From Candidatus Poribacteria bacterium (GTDB lineage Bacteria > Poribacteria > WGA-4E > JAJDTR01), in NCBI GenBank assembly GCA_028820655.1, contig JAPPIK010000056.1, positions 151,880 to 215,879 on the forward strand: a DNA stretch of 64,000 nucleotides, read 5' to 3'. The notes below the pieces were generated by a model. That model had not been told where the DNA came from. It ran no database searches and saw nothing but the letters and a program-made list of their open reading frames with translations. This document shows positions 6,398 through 38,218 of the stretch, piece by piece. The translations under genes were made by a program, and so were the position numbers. Position 1 is the stretch's first letter; the number at the start of each line of letters is the position of its first letter.

Positions 6398-6580
6398 AAA
6401 AGACGTTTCATGATTACGCTTCCGCGAGGACTCCCGTTTGGCGGGGCCTTGCAAACTACAGCGGTTAGAGCAAGAACGTCTCCGCTTTATATGACCGCGT
6501 GCAGATAGTGACTATCTTCAATTTCGGTCCTGGGACTGCAGACCGTGGCAAGCCCGTAGTCATGCTCATTGAAGTCTGAC
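6398..6580 (+). ncRNA. Candidate structured RNA or long 5' leader
   Basis: Directly downstream of a strong promoter, the two ends pair: 6409-6418 (CATGATTACG) with 6555-6564 (CGTAGTCATG) forms 10 pairs with one G-U. The helix continues as CTT/AAG (6419-6421 with 6550-6552) and CCGCG/CGTGG (6422-6426 with 6544-6548), with small bulges. Inside lie a CCCG/CGGG hairpin near 6433-6445 and the perfect hairpin AGATAG-TGA-CTATCT near 6503-6517. A closed rod with internal hairpins is what a stable RNA such as 6S RNA looks like, but I recognise no family signature. It could equally be a regulatory leader of the gene at 6638. No terminator is visible at its 3' end. Confidence 0.4.
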
Positions 6581-6637
6581 ACATTCAATCTAATTCATGG
6601 GCTTGCTGGCGGCTGGCGCCGGCACGCGCTTTACTGT

Positions 6638-7693
6638 ATGACGATAAAAACCCTCCTCTCTAAATTCCTTTTCCCAACACTAATCGCAGTTGTCATCAGC
6701 TACTTTCTTTTAACGGAAATCTCGCGCCCAGACACTCCAACATCCGAGAAATACAGTGCATTTCAGTTAATCAAGAAGGGTGTGGAAGAGATCGTGACGA
6801 CACTTGGCAAAATCTCGTTTTGGGCAGTCACCATCGGGTTTTTTCTATATTCGTCACTGGTTTGGACAAAAGCTCTTCGTTTTCGTGAGTTGCTTGAGTT
6901 AAACGTTCCGGTTACGCAACTTACCCCTATCCTCGCGTTGCATACCTTTTGGGGTAACCTCCTACCGATGCGCAGCGGCGATCTTTCCTATATCTACTTG
7001 ATGAAGCGTAGAGAAGGAGTAGATGAAACAAAGAGTGTCGCATCACTGATGTTGGCGAGCATCATCGATCTTATGTCACTGTTGGCGTTCATGGTCGGCA
7101 CAGGTTGGTTGCTCCGCTCTAGTCTCGTTGGAGAACTATCTTACACGATTCTCTTTGCAGCGCCTCTCCTAATTTTCTGCGCGTTGGCGGTTTTGCTTTC
7201 TACCGCGTGCATTGCACCCAAAGCATGCGTTTCTATTGCTTCCTATTGTGCCCAACCTTTACTCAATTTCGAAAAGCGGCCAATTACGTGGTTGGTGACC
7301 AAATGTCTTGACGTCGTTCATGAATTGACGCATATCCGTTTTGACTGGCGTTTCTCCAAAATATGGGGGTATTCTCTCCTCGGTTTGGGAATCCGTTTTG
7401 GATTCCAGTGCTATCTTGCACGTGAAATGGGTATTCATATCTCCGTTATTAGCTTGATTTTTGCATTGGCGTTCACCAGTATTTTCAACCTGTTGCCCGT
7501 TCAAAGCATTGGCAATTTCGGGACGGTGGAATTTCCTTTCGTGGCGGTGTTAACACTTCTCGGAACAGAGGAAAAGCCGGCGATCGTTGCCGGATTCAGC
7601 CTACACCTGATTATTCTACTCTACTGCATTCCATTGGGCGTCTATGGGTTGATTAAGAAAACGCGTCACCGAAATCAGGAAATGAAGAAATAA
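6638..7693 (+). CDS. LPG synthase TM / flippase-like (UPF0104) membrane protein
   Basis: This protein of about 351 residues has around eight predicted membrane helices. It matches the lysylphosphatidylglycerol synthase transmembrane / AglD-like family: the central stretch HTFWGNLLPMRSGDLSYIYL resembles the family's conserved N-x-x-x-P-x-R-x-G-(D/E) motif, and AFTSIFNLLPVQSIGNFGTVE resembles the late L-P-x-x-x-G-x-G-x-x-E motif. These proteins move or modify lipid-linked molecules in the inner membrane; the substrate here is unknown. The start is placed at the ATG at 6638 (MTIKTLLSKFLFP), which gives a clean first helix. A longer TTG-initiated frame from 6569 would overlap the foldable RNA region. 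Confidence 0.75.
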   Translation: MTIKTLLSKFLFPTLIAVVISYFLLTEISRPDTPTSEKYSAFQLIKKGVEEIVTTLGKISFWAVTIGFFLYSSLVWTKALRFRELLELNVPVTQLTPILALHTFWGNLLPMRSGDLSYIYLMKRREGVDETKSVASLMLASIIDLMSLLAFMVGTGWLLRSSLVGELSYTILFAAPLLIFCALAVLLSTACIAPKACVSIASYCAQPLLNFEKRPITWLVTKCLDVVHELTHIRFDWRFSKIWGYSLLGLGIRFGFQCYLAREMGIHISVISLIFALAFTSIFNLLPVQSIGNFGTVEFPFVAVLTLLGTEEKPAIVAGFSLHLIILLYCIPLGVYGLIKKTRHRNQEMKK

Positions 7694-25785: not shown

Positions 25786-28305
25786 GTGAAATTTCGCAAC
25801 CTTTTTCATATTCTTCTTACATTCGTTGGTTTTGTTGCATTCGGTCCCGCACAGCCTTTGCGCGCACAAATGCAGGCGCAACCTGCGCCGGAAGAGGTAC
25901 ATCCGCTAGTCGAAGCTGTGCGCGTTCTCCCTGCCGTTCAAAAGCCTATCGTTGACAATTCACGCCGATCAAACGCGTGGGCAGAGATTGTTGAATCCGC
26001 CGGAATTGACGCGGCGGCTGAACGGTGCCTCAAGTGTCATTTCACGGAAGAGACAGAAGAGGATCCGCACCCAGGCAAACATCTGGATCATCATGCCTCC
26101 GCAACATTCGGTTGTGTACTTTGCCATGGTGGAAACGGCAATGCTGAAGTTAAGAAAAAGGCGCACGCCTCAGCAGAGGGGTTTCCGTTCCTGACAGGCC
26201 AACAGGTAGAAGCGGCATGCGGCAAATGCCATCTCGAACCTGCCGTATTGGATGCGCCCAATCTTTCCGGCGGTCGGTACGTGTTAAACAAATACGGCTG
26301 CGTAACCTGTCATCATCTTCCTGTCCAAATTCCTGTCAGACGTTATGCACCCCGATTGGATTTCATAGGGAACAAAGTCACAAGAGCGTGGCTGGATCAG
26401 TGGTTGAGTGATCCAACTGAATATCTGCCAAAATCGAAAATGCCGCGGGTTGAAATGGCCGAATTAGAGCGGGCGGCAATTGTCGAGTTCCTTAGTAGTC
26501 TGCGTCTTGATGAACAGCTTCAACCCATAGAAGGCTCTGGAGATGCTGAAGCTGGGCAGAGGCTGTATGTTGAGAGTGAATGTCATAGCTGTCACGCCAC
26601 GCCGGAGATTGGACATGCCGTTGGTCCGGATCTAACCAAAGTGGACACAAAGGTAAATCGGACATGGCTGTGGTACTATCTCAAGAATCCGGCGAATTTG
26701 CATCCGGAAACGAAAATGCCCAGCTATGACTTCACTGATCAACAGGCATTGAATTTGACAGAGTATCTGTTGGGAAATGTTGCTCCCGAATCAACAGGTG
26801 ACGCGCCGGTTGCGGCGCTTGAGGGTGGAAACCTCTCCGAAGTGGAACCACCGGCCGAGATCGATGCCGAAAGAGCGGCTGATGGCTTTAGTTTATACAT
26901 TTCAAAAGGTTGTGCGCAATGTCACGGCATAGGAAAATATATGGGCGTAGACATTTCGAATCAGTTGCTAAACAGCGAAATTCGAGATTCCCTCCTGAAG
27001 ATTCAATCGCATCACGGCGCCAGTGTAGAGGTCCCGGAAATTGACATGCCGGAATCGGATGTCAGATTGATGACAGTTGCAATCTTGGCACTTCGACGCA
27101 GCGAAATTTATCGTGCCCTGTCATACAAGCTCAAAAACGGGGCGTTGGGTGATCCCAATCGATTCGTGCACGAATTCTGGGAGTTACCCATCCCTGCACA
27201 AGAAAAAGCACCTGACTATTACAACGAAGCGGTATCGCAACTCACCCCCGAGGCGTGCGGGGCTTGTCACCAACAACAGTTCAGTGACTGGAAAACATCC
27301 AGGCATGCCATCGCCATGGGCCCGGGTGTCCACGGTCAACTGATCGAGCAAAAGCCGGGGACTGTCCTCACGTGCCAAAAGTGTCACGCACCTTTGTCCG
27401 AACAGCTTGAGTTTCTCACGCTGACCGGAAAAAGAAATAGCGATCAAGTTGAATTTTCCAGCGGGGGGACGGAATTCATTTCAAACGAGGGGTATGACGA
27501 AAATCTTCAATCCCACGGAATCGTGTGTGCTGCGTGTCACGTGCGTTCGCACCAGCGATTCGGTCCTCCATTCTCTGAACACGCGGCTGCAGCAAATGTC
27601 TTTGCGGAAGGGCATCACGGTGGAGCAATAACCGCATCAGCGTATAACGACTCGTCGTTTTGCAAGCCGTGTCATCAGTTCGAGGAAAACGGATTCGCTC
27701 TGAACGGTAAACTACTGGAAAATACGTACAATGAATGGCTTGAAAGTCCTCATGCGAAGGAAGGAAAAACGTGCCAATCGTGCCATATGCCAGACAGCCG
27801 CCACCAATGGCGCGGAATTCATAATCCCGATAGTGTGAGGGATGCGCTGGACTTGGATGTGGAAATCAAGAACTATCAAGAGTCCCTAGAAGCAGAGATT
27901 CGTCTAACGAATCACGGAGCGGGGCACCATTTGCCTACTTATCTGACCCCGGCGATTTTTGTCACTACAAGATTGCTTGATTCGACTGAAACTCAAATTC
28001 CGAAGACCGAGACAATTCGAGTGATTCAACGTCGGGTACCGCTATCATTGGATAAGGAGGTTTTCGACACGCGTATTCCTGCCGGCGGGACATGGGTATA
28101 CACGTATAAATCGCCTCATGCCAACAGCGCAAAGTTTCTGGAAATTCAACTCGAGGTCCATCCGGATCATTTCTACAACGACTTCTTTGAAGTGTACAAG
28201 TCGAAAACTCCGGAGGGAAAATTGGCAATCAAGCAGGCACTTGAAATCACGGAACAAAGCCCCTATTTCCTCATGTCCAAACAAATACCCTTGGTCTCAA
28301 AGTAA
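25786..28305 (+). CDS. Multihaem c-type cytochrome, 11 CXXCH motifs
   Basis: 839 residues from a GTG at 25786, with a signal peptide (FRNLFHILLTFVGFVAFGPAQPLRA). Eleven haem-binding sites are read in order: CLKCH, CVLCH, CGKCH, CVTCH, CHSCH, CAQCH, CGACH, CQKCH, CAACH, CKPCH, CQSCH. The first six lie in cytochrome c-type domains (to about residue 390) and the last five in a cytochrome c-554-like part (about 480-670). A beta-rich C-terminal domain (about 690-830) ends the protein. It should carry electrons in the periplasm, possibly to a terminal reductase or surface acceptor. Fusion of both haem parts and a beta domain in one chain is notable. Haem-maturation genes are not nearby. Confidence 0.9.
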   Translation: MKFRNLFHILLTFVGFVAFGPAQPLRAQMQAQPAPEEVHPLVEAVRVLPAVQKPIVDNSRRSNAWAEIVESAGIDAAAERCLKCHFTEETEEDPHPGKHLDHHASATFGCVLCHGGNGNAEVKKKAHASAEGFPFLTGQQVEAACGKCHLEPAVLDAPNLSGGRYVLNKYGCVTCHHLPVQIPVRRYAPRLDFIGNKVTRAWLDQWLSDPTEYLPKSKMPRVEMAELERAAIVEFLSSLRLDEQLQPIEGSGDAEAGQRLYVESECHSCHATPEIGHAVGPDLTKVDTKVNRTWLWYYLKNPANLHPETKMPSYDFTDQQALNLTEYLLGNVAPESTGDAPVAALEGGNLSEVEPPAEIDAERAADGFSLYISKGCAQCHGIGKYMGVDISNQLLNSEIRDSLLKIQSHHGASVEVPEIDMPESDVRLMTVAILALRRSEIYRALSYKLKNGALGDPNRFVHEFWELPIPAQEKAPDYYNEAVSQLTPEACGACHQQQFSDWKTSRHAIAMGPGVHGQLIEQKPGTVLTCQKCHAPLSEQLEFLTLTGKRNSDQVEFSSGGTEFISNEGYDENLQSHGIVCAACHVRSHQRFGPPFSEHAAAANVFAEGHHGGAITASAYNDSSFCKPCHQFEENGFALNGKLLENTYNEWLESPHAKEGKTCQSCHMPDSRHQWRGIHNPDSVRDALDLDVEIKNYQESLEAEIRLTNHGAGHHLPTYLTPAIFVTTRLLDSTETQIPKTETIRVIQRRVPLSLDKEVFDTRIPAGGTWVYTYKSPHANSAKFLEIQLEVHPDHFYNDFFEVYKSKTPEGKLAIKQALEITEQSPYFLMSKQIPLVSK

Positions 28306-32307: not shown

Positions 32308-35300
32308 TCAGAAATTCCGCGAGAGCCGCAAGATGTAATTGGTGGCGTGCCGTTTCTCTAATGCGCGGACAATCTCGAAGCGTAAGGTGTCGGGAGCTCC
32401 GTCATACGGCAAAGCATTTGTGAAAAGTGAAAACCCCATTCCGACAGAGGCATTTAAGCGCGTAAGGTCAAATCGCTCGTGATCAAACCAAGCGTCGCCG
32501 GTATCAAGGATGATGGACACCGCTCCATGCACAGCTTCACCCTTTCCGATGTGCTTCAGTCTCCGGACAATTTTGTATTCAACATTCATAGCGAGCATAT
32601 TATCGCCAATGAATCTGTTGTAGCCAAAACCGCGCAGAATATTATTGAGATCTACATAAAGCAGACGTTGCCGAGGTAGCGGGGAGTCTGAAAGAGCGCC
32701 GATTGCGCGAAAATCAAGATTGTGACCATTAGGCAAGCGGTTGTATCTTGCAATCTCAAACCGGTACAGAGTGAAATCGAAGTCACTATTGAATCGATGG
32801 CTCGAATGCTCAACAGAGAGGGAACTGCGCCAACCTCGCGTCGTGTGCTCACTAGGCCAAGGTGTTGACATAAATGGACGCCTGATGTTGAATTTGTGAT
32901 CTCTGGTGTCAAAATGATACGAAAACTCGAAGCTGCGCGCTTTTCCCTCGTCAATGCGAGCATTGCCCCGCTTCGGAAGACCTCGCGAAAACAGGCTCCA
33001 GTCTGTGACGGTAAAAAGTTGCTCATGCCGTTCATCGGTAAATCTGACTGCAAATTCGGAGGAAGTCGTCAATTTCTGAACCAGCCATGTCTGATAGCCT
33101 TGTCGTTGGTAAAAATCGACGAGAGATGATCCGAATATAGTCGACGACAATATGCCCTCTCCCGCGTACGTTGATGGGCTATGAACAACCCCGGTCAGAT
33201 TGTACCATGAACCCCCAAGGCGCAATTCATGGGTGCCAAACCACTGTTTTTCTGCGCCGAGTTGATAATTCTCGATTGAACTAGAAAGCCCGATGCTCGC
33301 ACCGCCAAAGATTTGTCCCTTGAAGTATGCATCCATGGAGGCTTTACCGCTTCCTCCCAAAATCAATCCGTGCACACGACTGAAGCCCACACGCGGCAAG
33401 GCAGAGTAGCGAATGGGTGGATGCTCTTCAATATTTATGAATAGCACATTTCTTCCATATTCTCTTTTCACCTCCCAATCCCGAACATCCTTGAAGAATT
33501 TACTGTGATTCGCGAGGTCTTTTCGCATGCGATTAATTTTCTTCTGAGTTTGTAATTCATTATAGACATCACCTTTTTGCAACCTTAAATTTTGGGTCAA
33601 TTCGTGACGTTTAATCCGTTTGTTTCCGGTAAAACGCACTTCGTCCAAGCGTCCCTCGTTAATGGTAAATTCCATCCTATGTGGGTCAAACCTCTCTTTG
33701 ATTCTTGCAAGTACGAAATCGTTATTCCGGTAAAGTGTTGCCATAAGTTGAGATTTTTTGTTTAGCTCCTCGATGGACACCCGCCCGCGGTTTAACCCGA
33801 ACCACTTTCTCAGCATGGACGATTTATAGTGAGAATTTCCCGTGAACTCCAATTTTTCGAGTACCACGGATGAAAATTCTGTAACATGGATACGAAGAGC
33901 AAGTCCAAGTGGAAGCAACGCGTTTTCCTCGTCCATCGTTGTATCTGCCCCGTTCGGATGTTGAATCGATTCCGCTGTATCTTTGCCAACAATTTCACGA
34001 GAATACACGTGGCCCTTGCTCTCAACTGAATCGAGAGGAATCGTGTCTAGTCTTGCCTTCCGAAGCCAAGGGTGTTCATTAAGTTCATCAACCAGCCATG
34101 ACAGTTGGCTGCCAGTAATCGTTTCCCCAATCTGAAACGGGATCTGCCGAATGATTTCTGGCGTGGATATTTCGCTGTTTCCTTTTATCTCGATTTCCCC
34201 TATCTGTAGTTGTTGATCAATTCCAAACAACGCCGATTCTTCGCCCGCCTCGGCGAATTGAAGCCGTCCCATTCGGTCTTTGTGGTGGGGCCACCACGGA
34301 GTCCGTGTATCGAAGGTCGGCATCCAATAACTGAATTCGCGGTTTTTCTGAGACCGGCGATGCAAATTCAATAGCCAATCATCTGTGATCTCTGGTTCCA
34401 AGAAATCGCGCTTCACGGCAATTTCGACGCACCAATACCGAGATGTGATTCGGGTTTCAACATTGACTGGCGACGCGTCGGGATGCGACAGCACACCAGC
34501 TCGAGATTCATCCGGATTCGCTTGTAATTTCCTCACATTTTTTTCGTCTGATCCGCGTTTGCTGTTGTCGGCCGTTTCCGTGACCGTCGGTGCGAACCGA
34601 TGATCCAGCTGATATTCCGCATGAACTTTCTGGCAGAAGATAGCGCCGATTGGGTTGACGATAAGGTGATAATACAACGGGGTCTTTGGATTGGGATCAA
34701 GTAAAACTTCTATCGAATCGTCCTGCCAAACTGCCGCGCCTCGCTCCGTCTGCGAAATATGCAGTTGCTTCATTTCATGGCAGTAGACCTTGATGCCGAT
34801 GTACAGATACTGATCGTCCCACATAAGAAATGCTTGTGTGGGTTCGACGGCTTCTTCTGTCCCGTCTGCTCTATAAAAAGGGTGCAACGCAATCGCTTTT
34901 GACCAAGATCTTTCAAATAGGTTACCATCGATCACCGGCGATTGTAGCGCTCTGGGCACCGATTGCACCTCGACTATTTCGCGCTCATCCTCGACGGAAT
35001 CGACATTGGTTTCCTCGTCGGTGGACGCCGCGTGTAGCGGGAGGATAGCTATTTTATCGTCGGCCGTCAGCCGAAAAAGCGGACCTCCGCCGTTAATCCA
35101 ACCATACAGCGAGTCCCCTTCAAACGAACTTTCAAGCTCAACAGGCATATTTATGGACACCGCATGTGGATCTTCATTCTTGGTTTGAATCTCTACTTCG
35201 GCTCGAATCGAGTTGGGTAAGCGCAGCGTAATCCCGCCACCGTTGGCGGTCAGATTGGTTGGAGCGGCAATCTCGTCCATTACCGCCAAGTCGATTTCTC

Positions 35301-35946
35301 CGAACGCGGTTTCAAAACGATTTAGTTGATTCGTGAGAAGTATTTCGCAGTGAAGGTTTCCTTTCCCGGAATAAACTCGACATCCACCCAACGTTTCATT
35401 TAGACGAATCTCACCGATTGCTGCCTTTACGTCAATGTTTCCGCGAATTTGATTGACCCGAATATCTCCATTCAGTGTTCGTATTTGGACGGAGACATCC
35501 GGTGGCGTACCGACAAAGCAGTCCAATCTTGTCAACTCCGCTTTTGAGTCGGAATTCGCAGGTAGTCTCGGCGTAAGAGCGAGTACATTGTCCGCCTTTG
35601 AAGCTGATAACTCAACGCCTTCAAAATAGTCGCTAATGCTGTCCTTGTCCGCCCCACGCCCGCGCTTCTCAAGCCTAATGATGATTTCGTCGCCGTCGAT
35701 GGCGTTAACTTCTACACTTCCATCGACGGACAGATCTATATTGATTGTGTAGATATCATGTAAGTTAAAGCGCTGCTCAGAAGTGACAGGATGATCTACC
35801 TCTATAAGATTCGATATCTTCGTGGTGGTCGCCTCGGGAGTTTCGGCGATTGATGCGGCGATGACGTCAATCTGCGCAAAGAATGCATTGATCGGTATTA
35901 CAGCGAATACAAGGCACCAATAGAAACGCAGGATAGCATCGAACAT
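32308..35946 (-). CDS. Omp85-type outer-membrane protein fused to DUF4097-like and CBM9-like domains
   Basis: 1212 residues with an N-terminal hydrophobic export signal. Residues about 70-310 are short beta-strand repeats of the DUF4097/adhesin type (SVEVNAIDGDEIIIRLEKRG, then VSVQIRTLNGDIRVNQIRGN). Residues about 332-560 resemble the carbohydrate-binding-like CBM9 domain (SPVIDGNLFERSWSKAIAL, then AVWQDDSIEVLLDPNP). Three POTRA-like units start near 584 (IGEIEIKGNSEISTPEII), 698 and 767 (LDEVRFTGNKRIKRHELT). The last ~370 residues form a barrel of the BamA/TamA/surface-antigen family (NNILRGFGYNRFIGDNMLAMNVEYKI), ending at a terminal Phe. Omp85 barrels insert or secrete proteins; the N-terminal additions would sit in the periplasm. 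The gene stands alone. Confidence 0.85.
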   Translation of the reverse strand: MFDAILRFYWCLVFAVIPINAFFAQIDVIAASIAETPEATTTKISNLIEVDHPVTSEQRFNLHDIYTINIDLSVDGSVEVNAIDGDEIIIRLEKRGRGADKDSISDYFEGVELSASKADNVLALTPRLPANSDSKAELTRLDCFVGTPPDVSVQIRTLNGDIRVNQIRGNIDVKAAIGEIRLNETLGGCRVYSGKGNLHCEILLTNQLNRFETAFGEIDLAVMDEIAAPTNLTANGGGITLRLPNSIRAEVEIQTKNEDPHAVSINMPVELESSFEGDSLYGWINGGGPLFRLTADDKIAILPLHAASTDEETNVDSVEDEREIVEVQSVPRALQSPVIDGNLFERSWSKAIALHPFYRADGTEEAVEPTQAFLMWDDQYLYIGIKVYCHEMKQLHISQTERGAAVWQDDSIEVLLDPNPKTPLYYHLIVNPIGAIFCQKVHAEYQLDHRFAPTVTETADNSKRGSDEKNVRKLQANPDESRAGVLSHPDASPVNVETRITSRYWCVEIAVKRDFLEPEITDDWLLNLHRRSQKNREFSYWMPTFDTRTPWWPHHKDRMGRLQFAEAGEESALFGIDQQLQIGEIEIKGNSEISTPEIIRQIPFQIGETITGSQLSWLVDELNEHPWLRKARLDTIPLDSVESKGHVYSREIVGKDTAESIQHPNGADTTMDEENALLPLGLALRIHVTEFSSVVLEKLEFTGNSHYKSSMLRKWFGLNRGRVSIEELNKKSQLMATLYRNNDFVLARIKERFDPHRMEFTINEGRLDEVRFTGNKRIKRHELTQNLRLQKGDVYNELQTQKKINRMRKDLANHSKFFKDVRDWEVKREYGRNVLFINIEEHPPIRYSALPRVGFSRVHGLILGGSGKASMDAYFKGQIFGGASIGLSSSIENYQLGAEKQWFGTHELRLGGSWYNLTGVVHSPSTYAGEGILSSTIFGSSLVDFYQRQGYQTWLVQKLTTSSEFAVRFTDERHEQLFTVTDWSLFSRGLPKRGNARIDEGKARSFEFSYHFDTRDHKFNIRRPFMSTPWPSEHTTRGWRSSLSVEHSSHRFNSDFDFTLYRFEIARYNRLPNGHNLDFRAIGALSDSPLPRQRLLYVDLNNILRGFGYNRFIGDNMLAMNVEYKIVRRLKHIGKGEAVHGAVSIILDTGDAWFDHERFDLTRLNASVGMGFSLFTNALPYDGAPDTLRFEIVRALEKRHATNYILRLSRNF

Positions 35947-36422: not shown

Positions 36423-38006
36423 TTAGTTCTCCAAGGTAACAACCTCGGCTAACGGCATGATGTTGTTTTTCTCAAGCAACCGCTTTAATTCTTCAAATCT
36501 TTCCCTTGAGATGACAAGATCGCTCGGTGAGACTTCGCCAAGGATGTGCTTCGCAATCTGCTTGTTGGATTTCAATTCTTGAGCAAGTCGTTCATTTTTG
36601 CAACGTAGCAACATCACGTCCATAAAGTAGACCTGTCCGTACCGCGTACCCCACTCGTGGATCGAAAGTTTGACGTTTTGCGGAATGCCTGTCTTGGAGT
36701 AGGCTTCCAAGAATGCGAGAATCTCGTTCACCGACATACCCGCGCGCAAGCTATTGTAGATGGATTGGGGGGTAAGTTTGTAGGTTATGACCTGACTGGC
36801 TTGATGGATTTCCGCGATTAGATTGAGTTTCCAGCGAATGCCGGGAGCAAGATTGCTTGAAGCTAAAATCTCGTAGTTGGGCTGAAGCACAAAGGTGGAC
36901 TCCCGTTCAATATCTGCTATCGATTGCCCCGCTATGAGTCGCATTCCAATCTCGGTAAGTTGTATCACCGAATCTTCCGCCGTGGCGTTAAAGTTTACAC
37001 ACCCCATGTAAGTCAGATAATTCGTGAATCGGCGTTCAAGGTGTGAGTAAAGCGTCTGTTCCCAAGTCTCCTCTACAGAAAGCCTTTGCACCTGTCCCAG
37101 AATGGATGACAGTTTTACCCATCGGTTTTCTGACAGAATTCGTAATAGCGAATGGGCCATTGTAAGTTGACGACTGGGATATACGTCATGTTTAAGCCAG
37201 TATTGAAAGATAGTTGAAAGTTTTTCCGCGTTGGATTTCTGTATCCATTCATGCCCTAGCTCTGAGCAGTGTAGGTTATTGGAATTATCCAAGTGGACGA
37301 GTTGGTGATGCTGACAGAAGTTGTGAATGAAGTGCAGGCGATCCGTGGTTCCGTCGGGCGGATTAATGCGGTCATAAATCTTTGTGGTGTCTTCGGTAAC
37401 CTCAAAGGCGTTGAGGAGCCGTTTCTGGGCATGTTTGTGAACAGTCAATCGCTGTGTAAGTCGGATGCCGTCCCGCTCGGCGGTGGATAGAAAAGTAAAA
37501 GTGTCTTGGAGGAGTGCGAATCGATCACTGCGAATGGATTTGGGGGCTGCGCCCGGAGAAATGAGTCCAGCATTAATCTCGTCGGAAAATACCTTCAATA
37601 GCAGCGATTGAAGATCTTCCGGAATCATGTAAATATGTTGGAAATGGCCCGTCGATACTAAGAAAATCAACCCTGATTCATGTAACGACTGTCGCACCTG
37701 TTCAGGCGCTCGTGACCAACCGCGGCAGAGTTGTTTGAGTTTCCGGTTAAAGAGATCAACGGTCACTCCATGTGAACCCGATAGGAATGTGAGTGTGGTT
37801 AGGAGTGAACGTTCGTGGGGATTAAGGCGGGTGATGGTCGCTTTCAGCCAAGCGATGTTCAGCACTCTCTCGGGGATCTTTTTTCTTAGGCTTTGAACGG
37901 ATAACTGGCCGGACAATCCGATTCTCTTGGCAACTAGCTGGCAATACTCCTTGGGGACGCGTTTGATTATTTCACTGTACTTCGTTGTTTCGTTGGATGG
38001 GTTCAT
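36423..38006 (-). CDS. Helicase-associated (XPB/Ssl2 N-terminal-like) domain protein
   Basis: About 527 residues from the ATG at 38006 (MNPSNETTKYSEIIKRVPKE); an ATG at 38030 is in frame. The N-terminal half is a run of winged-helix-like segments. The C-terminal half has FVLQPNYEILASSNLAPGIRWKLNLIAEIHQASQVITYKLT followed by SIYNSLRAGMSVNEILAFLEAYSKTGIPQNV. This is the helicase-associated domain found next to XPB-type helicases and alone in many bacteria. No helicase motor is present in the protein or next to it. A DNA- or transcription-linked role is inferred from the family only. Confidence 0.75.
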   Translation of the reverse strand: MNPSNETTKYSEIIKRVPKEYCQLVAKRIGLSGQLSVQSLRKKIPERVLNIAWLKATITRLNPHERSLLTTLTFLSGSHGVTVDLFNRKLKQLCRGWSRAPEQVRQSLHESGLIFLVSTGHFQHIYMIPEDLQSLLLKVFSDEINAGLISPGAAPKSIRSDRFALLQDTFTFLSTAERDGIRLTQRLTVHKHAQKRLLNAFEVTEDTTKIYDRINPPDGTTDRLHFIHNFCQHHQLVHLDNSNNLHCSELGHEWIQKSNAEKLSTIFQYWLKHDVYPSRQLTMAHSLLRILSENRWVKLSSILGQVQRLSVEETWEQTLYSHLERRFTNYLTYMGCVNFNATAEDSVIQLTEIGMRLIAGQSIADIERESTFVLQPNYEILASSNLAPGIRWKLNLIAEIHQASQVITYKLTPQSIYNSLRAGMSVNEILAFLEAYSKTGIPQNVKLSIHEWGTRYGQVYFMDVMLLRCKNERLAQELKSNKQIAKHILGEVSPSDLVISRERFEELKRLLEKNNIMPLAEVVTLEN

Positions 38007-38218
38007 AGGCGATAGGATATGGCGCGACACATTTTAGGGTATACTGTCTGTACTAGGGAATGGCAAATACGAGCTAGTCGTTCGACCGCGTTAGGGGTAG
38101 TTTGAATAAACTGGACGTTCTCTTGGTCACACCATTTTGCAGTGGATGTTACCATCATAGCGTGGCCGCCCCAATAGAATGGAGATGAACGGTTTTCACA
38201 GAGTCTGTTTGTCCGAAT

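Follow-up and report, generated by a model that had tools for sequence, protein, structure and literature searches.

A Toastrack–CBM9–POTRA–Omp85 fusion protein carried by most Poribacteria genomes

The locus and the modules of its product

The window, the whole 64,000-nucleotide stretch of DNA analysed here, comes from a 5.9 Mb genome of Candidatus Poribacteria, bacteria known chiefly as sponge associates. On its minus strand, an open frame running from ATG to stop at 32308-35946 encodes a protein of 1212 residues in which a signal peptide is followed by a Toastrack domain, a CBM9 domain, three POTRA units and an Omp85 barrel. The plus strand opposite is rich in stops and not open, and the genome holds a single full-length copy of the gene. 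Full-length orthologues, 75% identical within the genus and for the most part 33-46% identical beyond it, support the frame. Because orthologues in a single open frame occur in about 72 Poribacteria genomes, an assembly chimera or a frameshift fusion is ruled out.

The fusion gene is flanked by a GcvT/YgfZ-like gene and a Helicase_C_3 gene. The former may have its own promoter, a promoter-like site with 11 of 12 positions preceding it, and it lies downstream of the fusion only in families f1 and f2; neighbours vary, and no conserved operon partner was found across families. At 36423-38030 (minus strand), a 535-residue protein has Helicase_C_3 and Tfb2-like regions with no match to a helicase core, and at 25786-28305 (plus strand) a protein of 839 residues with many CxxCH heme motifs is probably a multiheme cytochrome c.

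All features of the fusion given below lie on the minus strand. Residues ~1-25 (35872-35946) form a signal-peptide-like hydrophobic segment, MFDAILRFYWCLVFAVIPINAFFAQ, and a comparable hydrophobic N-terminus occurs in 42 of 45 family members. The Toastrack (DUF4097), a single-stranded beta-helix, occupies residues ~54-303 (35038-35787) according to Pfam and PDB fold matches; the DUF4097 match at 153-261 (E 4.8e-4) falls slightly under the family cut-off in the window protein, and the domain is detected in 22 of 26 family members, with a best E of 1.3e-9. The CBM9 domain follows at residues ~327-565 (34252-34968), recognized by Pfam CBM9_1 (339-461, E 1.3e-8; 21 of the 26 members) and by a profile match to 1i82 (E 3.6e-10), as well as by its jelly-roll fold. 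POTRA 1 (~580-690; 33877-34209) is matched by Pfam POTRA_1 at 582-634 (E 5e-7) and has a beta-alpha-alpha-beta-beta order in the model; it contains an insert at ~640-677 that is disordered (pLDDT <50 in the model) and differs in length among orthologues. POTRA 2 (~693-763; 33658-33870) was placed from Pfam POTRA repeats (E 8e-20), the model and an alignment with TamA and BamA POTRAs, and POTRA 3 (~767-841; 33424-33648) from a Pfam POTRA match at 768-841 and the model; POTRA matches occur in 23 of the 26 members. The chain closes with a 16-strand Omp85 beta-barrel (residues 845-1212; 32311-33414), identified by its fold match to Sam50 and ending in a conserved phenylalanine, F1212, with Omp85 (PF01103) found in 22 of the 26. 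Within it, the alignment places the signature LRGF at residues 1104-1107 (32626-32637), R1105-G1106 being conserved at ≥90%, which we take to be the (V/I)RGF-type loop-6 motif of Omp85 proteins.

An AlphaFold2 model computed from an alignment of 45 orthologues has a mean pLDDT of 81 and a pTM of 0.48, and this low pTM points to flexible links between the modules. The predicted barrel matches Sam50 (9nk7_B) with Z 24.2 and an rmsd of 3.5 over 306 residues, and the TamA and BamA barrels with Z 21-22. With the whole chain as query, Sam50, TamA and BamA are matched across the POTRAs and the barrel, and BamA structures top the Foldseek list. For the other two modules, residues 56-576 were modelled separately and compared with PDB structures, a comparison in which unrelated rows reach Z ≤7. 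The Toastrack part matches 3pet (Z 13.3), 4ygu (12.8) and 4qrk (12.8), while the CBM9 part matches Thermotoga maritima CBM9-2 (1i82_A) with Z 19.8 and an rmsd of 2.6 over 173 of 189 residues, together with 4jpq_A (Z 20.7) and 7nwn (Z 20.0). The predicted model thus strongly confirms the CBM9 fold that a sequence-only reading of the locus had proposed. That reading had also described a four-module chain with the CBM9 ahead of the POTRAs, an order borne out by profile, fold and conservation; it named no strand, and its boundaries (70-310, 332-560, 584-830 and 845-1212) agree with ours within ~20 residues, except that 584-830 is not one module and consists of three POTRA units.

Place among Omp85 proteins and spread in the phylum

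All features of Omp85 membership are present, namely the 16-strand barrel, the three POTRAs and the loop-6 RGF motif. Against the BamA model TIGR03303, however, the fusion protein scores 38.9 bits with a cut-off of 297, and the same genome encodes a separate BamA with 383 bits and five POTRAs. It also encodes a six-POTRA TamA-like Omp85 gene that adjoins tamB, as the fusion gene does not. In a tree of barrels, those of the fusions group with DUF4252-Omp85 proteins, outside the BamA/TamA-like clade. Scores, separate genes and tree position together rule out orthology with BamA or TamA, and since BamA and TamA-like genes with TamB exist separately, the fusion should serve an extra role. The genome further holds a three-POTRA Omp85, a two-POTRA protein with no Omp85 domain match and a peptidase-WD40-Omp85 protein. 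A search for a lipopolysaccharide context with PF04453 (LptD) gave no match, and the same model misses a Bacteroides control genome too. Two loci deserve mention: in L118 (G000:C22, 1-7683) a TamB gene precedes an Omp85 gene that has six POTRAs, against three in proteobacterial TamA, and in L120 (G000:C2, 4229-7135) one chain combines Peptidase_MA, a WD40-like propeller and an Omp85 barrel.

A published census divides the Omp85 superfamily into ten subfamilies, and neither CBM9 nor DUF4097 occurs in any of them (PMC4104836). The fusion shares with the Omp85/TpsB superfamily the POTRAs, the 16-strand barrel with its RGF loop and the theme of an extra N-terminal periplasmic module; it differs from the members surveyed there (BamA, TamA, TamL, 'BamA-like', WD40-Omp85, PlpD and metallo-Omp85) in that a Toastrack and a CBM9 precede its three POTRAs. 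No patatin, WD40 or metallophosphatase domain, as in PlpD-like, WD40-Omp85 and metallo-Omp85 proteins, was found at its N-terminus, only Toastrack and CBM9. Its nearest barrel relatives, DUF4252-(POTRA)-Omp85 proteins of Poribacteria (L052, L053, L055), carry DUF4252 instead of Toastrack-CBM9; in L052 (8035-10095) and L053 (1764-3653), DUF4252, a POTRA-like segment and the barrel lie in one chain. Our literature search found no paper linking Omp85 with Poribacteria, and among the papers it listed none was seen to link Omp85 or POTRA with CBM9. The supposition that the architecture was uncatalogued held against the census, and the Toastrack–CBM9–POTRA–Omp85 combination is in none of the ten published subfamilies and in no report found.

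The same architecture recurs in nearly all of the phylum. At E 1e-20 or better, 76 of 84 Poribacteria genomes match the fusion protein, and about 72 carry the fusion itself, a count that omits three genomes with a short form (family f3) and one (G018) whose match is a DUF4252-Omp85 protein only, and that includes some copies cut by contig ends. These genomes span eight of ten families and two classes: f1, f2, f4, f5, f6 and f8, plus f9 and f10 outside the window's class. In the most divergent fusion (G059, f5) the CBM9_1 match is not significant, yet the region aligns. The fusion is absent from all six f7 genomes, three of them >90% complete. A scan of genome contigs queried with the single window protein gave no matches; queried with the alignment, a single degenerate pattern not expected to reach into other phyla, it returned 50 loci, all in Poribacteria. 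The fusion is a conserved and probably ancestral trait of the phylum rather than a chance joining.

The short form offers a natural experiment. The three f3 orthologues (L045, L046 and L047; 649-687 residues) pass directly from Toastrack to barrel, with neither CBM9 nor POTRA, and a search of the f3 genomes for a split-off CBM9-POTRA gene found ordinary CBM9 proteins only. Because f3 barrels are nested in the fusion clade of the barrel tree, and trees placing them outside it are moderately rejected by the AU test (p 0.03 and 0.04), a CBM9-POTRA deletion is favoured over a primitive state on this phylogenetic ground. The protein has been kept in f3 without CBM9 and POTRAs, and glycan docking is therefore not essential to every version; Toastrack and barrel are the minimum that evolution has retained there. 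Full fusion and Toastrack-barrel form make up a natural deletion series, from which one can ask which parts an Omp85 protein can spare.

The CBM9 and Toastrack modules

In TmCBM9-2, the sugar is held between Trp71 and Trp175 (PMC8280721). An alignment of the PDB sequence sets W71 against W407, E77 against E413 and W175 against W552 of the fusion. Trp407 (34726-34728) and Trp552 (34291-34293) are each tryptophan in 40 of 42 full-length orthologues, the exceptions being W407G in L038 and W552I in L109. The equivalence of Trp552 comes from a gapped C-terminal alignment rather than superposed coordinates, with local and global MAFFT additions in agreement. The motif around this second tryptophan, YW-P-T-Y...PWWPH, is near-invariant among orthologues. 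Positions conserved at ≥90% in the orthologue alignment make up 19% of the CBM9, against 17% of the barrel, 12% of the Toastrack and 7-12% of the POTRAs. The conserved clamp and this top share of conserved positions argue for a binding site kept in the CBM9, while conservation does not name the ligand. The earlier suggestion that the domain could bind glycans gains indirect support from the two-tryptophan clamp; peptidoglycan as the ligand and a secretion pore as the function, also put forward there, are candidate assignments.

Compared with the CBM9 modules of xylanases (TmCBM9-2, 1I82/1I8A; CkCBM9.3, 7nwn; PMC8280721), that of the fusion shares the fold (Z ~20), both clamp aromatics and Glu77, whereas none of the other TmCBM9-2 sugar contacts was found conserved. 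Xylanase CBM9 modules are part of an extracellular glycosidase; the one described here precedes an Omp85 barrel and is presumably periplasmic. In four CBM9-like paralogues of the same genome the second tryptophan is absent and the first mostly so. One of them, CBM9_1-DUF5916 (L003), also has its CBM9-like domain upstream of another domain in one chain, but with no POTRA and no Omp85 barrel match.

The Toastrack shares fold and Pfam family with other Toastrack/DUF4097 proteins (4QRK, 3PET). A survey of Psp systems judged the Toastrack of Psp/Lia systems likely intracellular (PMC11237479). In contrast, that of the fusion sits between a signal peptide and the POTRAs, which places it outside the cytoplasm; from this order it must be on the periplasmic side, and so runs against the published inference for Psp/Lia. 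Neither PspC, a LiaF-type transmembrane region nor a regulator linked to Toastrack was found in the chain or the examined flanking genes. A putative cytoplasmic kind exists in the same phylum, where L121 (G012, 6486-7610) encodes a SHOCT-like region and a Toastrack without a barrel.

Proposed role and competing readings

We tentatively propose, as the leading reading, that the fusion is an accessory Omp85 outer-membrane insertase whose CBM9 docks on a periplasmic glycan while a client is inserted or translocated beside BamA/TamA-like pathways. From established Omp85 biology, the barrel would lie in the outer membrane with all N-terminal modules in the periplasm; in PlpD, a well-studied Omp85 protein with a foreign N-terminal domain, that domain is periplasmic (PMC11116518). 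The CBM9 might grip a periplasmic glycan, most likely the end of a peptidoglycan strand, and this grip would anchor and orient the POTRA arm and the pore. The Toastrack would serve as a distal protein-docking head or fold back onto the barrel. Barrel and POTRAs might then insert or translocate the client alongside BamA and the TamA-like pathway, an insertase activity suggested by family membership only. Since the genome has OmpA/Pal-type domains, the fusion is not the only possible link to peptidoglycan, which weakens the idea of it as the sole tether. More generally, it is possible, if on the doubtful side, that the activity or placement of an Omp85 protein is set by a built-in lectin reading peptidoglycan ends or a client's glycan, a principle for which our literature search found no description in any Omp85 protein. 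How cells position the sites of outer-membrane assembly with respect to peptidoglycan is still an open problem in the field; with an Omp85 and a sugar-binding domain on one chain throughout a phylum, a link between assembly and glycan becomes testable in a single polypeptide.

The clamp and its conservation would equally suit a CBM9 that binds the glycan of the client itself, be it a glycoprotein, a surface polysaccharide or a glycolipid in transit, with the barrel exporting or inserting the glycosylated client. Further CBM9-like and Omp85 proteins are numerous in Poribacteria genomes, which makes glycan-linked envelope traffic plausible. We nevertheless find this rather unlikely, as from one family to the next the locus has no linked gene for glycan synthesis or for a client, and we know of no Omp85 protein that moves glycans.

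A shared fold alone shows no function, and the CBM9 could be a protein-protein or spacer module that, with the Toastrack, merely lengthens the periplasmic arm. Its loss from f3 fits this idea, as does the reuse of CBM9-like domains elsewhere, for example in CBM9-DUF5916, where the clamp is gone. A spacer, however, has no need of two tryptophans kept in 40 of 42 orthologues within a near-invariant motif, and we hold this reading to be less probable again.

It is tempting to imagine Toastrack and CBM9 leaving through the barrel to bind sponge glycans as a lectin on the cell surface, given the sponge association of Poribacteria, the export model once suggested for PlpD and the title 'putative adhesin' of several solved Toastrack proteins. 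This is very unlikely, because both modules precede three POTRAs, which are periplasmic, and the N-terminal domain of PlpD proved to be periplasmic as well (PMC11116518). Heme binding by a CBM9/DOMON-like domain comes to mind because the fold comparison also retrieved 2ivf_C (Z 14.0) and 7b04_C (Z 12.6). The gamma subunits concerned, of ethylbenzene dehydrogenase and nitrite oxidoreductase, use methionine or lysine as axial heme ligands; no methionine or lysine is near-invariant within the CBM9 domain in the orthologue alignment, and sugar-binding CBM9 structures score higher (Z ~20), which leaves this reading extremely improbable. That the protein is the organism's own BamA or TamA with extra domains, as its POTRA and barrel homology and the head of the Foldseek list might hint, is scarcely credible beside its 38.9 bits, the separate BamA and tamB-adjacent TamA-like genes, and the tree.

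Elsewhere in the phylum, L054 (G008:C137) and L055 (G048:C82) carry Omp85 proteins of 651-821 residues in tandem, as a pair in one genome and a trio in the other, some with DUF4252. In L055, DUF4159 proteins are interleaved among the Omp85 genes; in L054, PA14 proteins with a TonB-like N-terminus are interleaved, and the array adjoins an ECF-sigma gene that is joined in fusion with a BNR/Sortilin-like repeat. These tandem loci look like a regulated envelope gene cluster.
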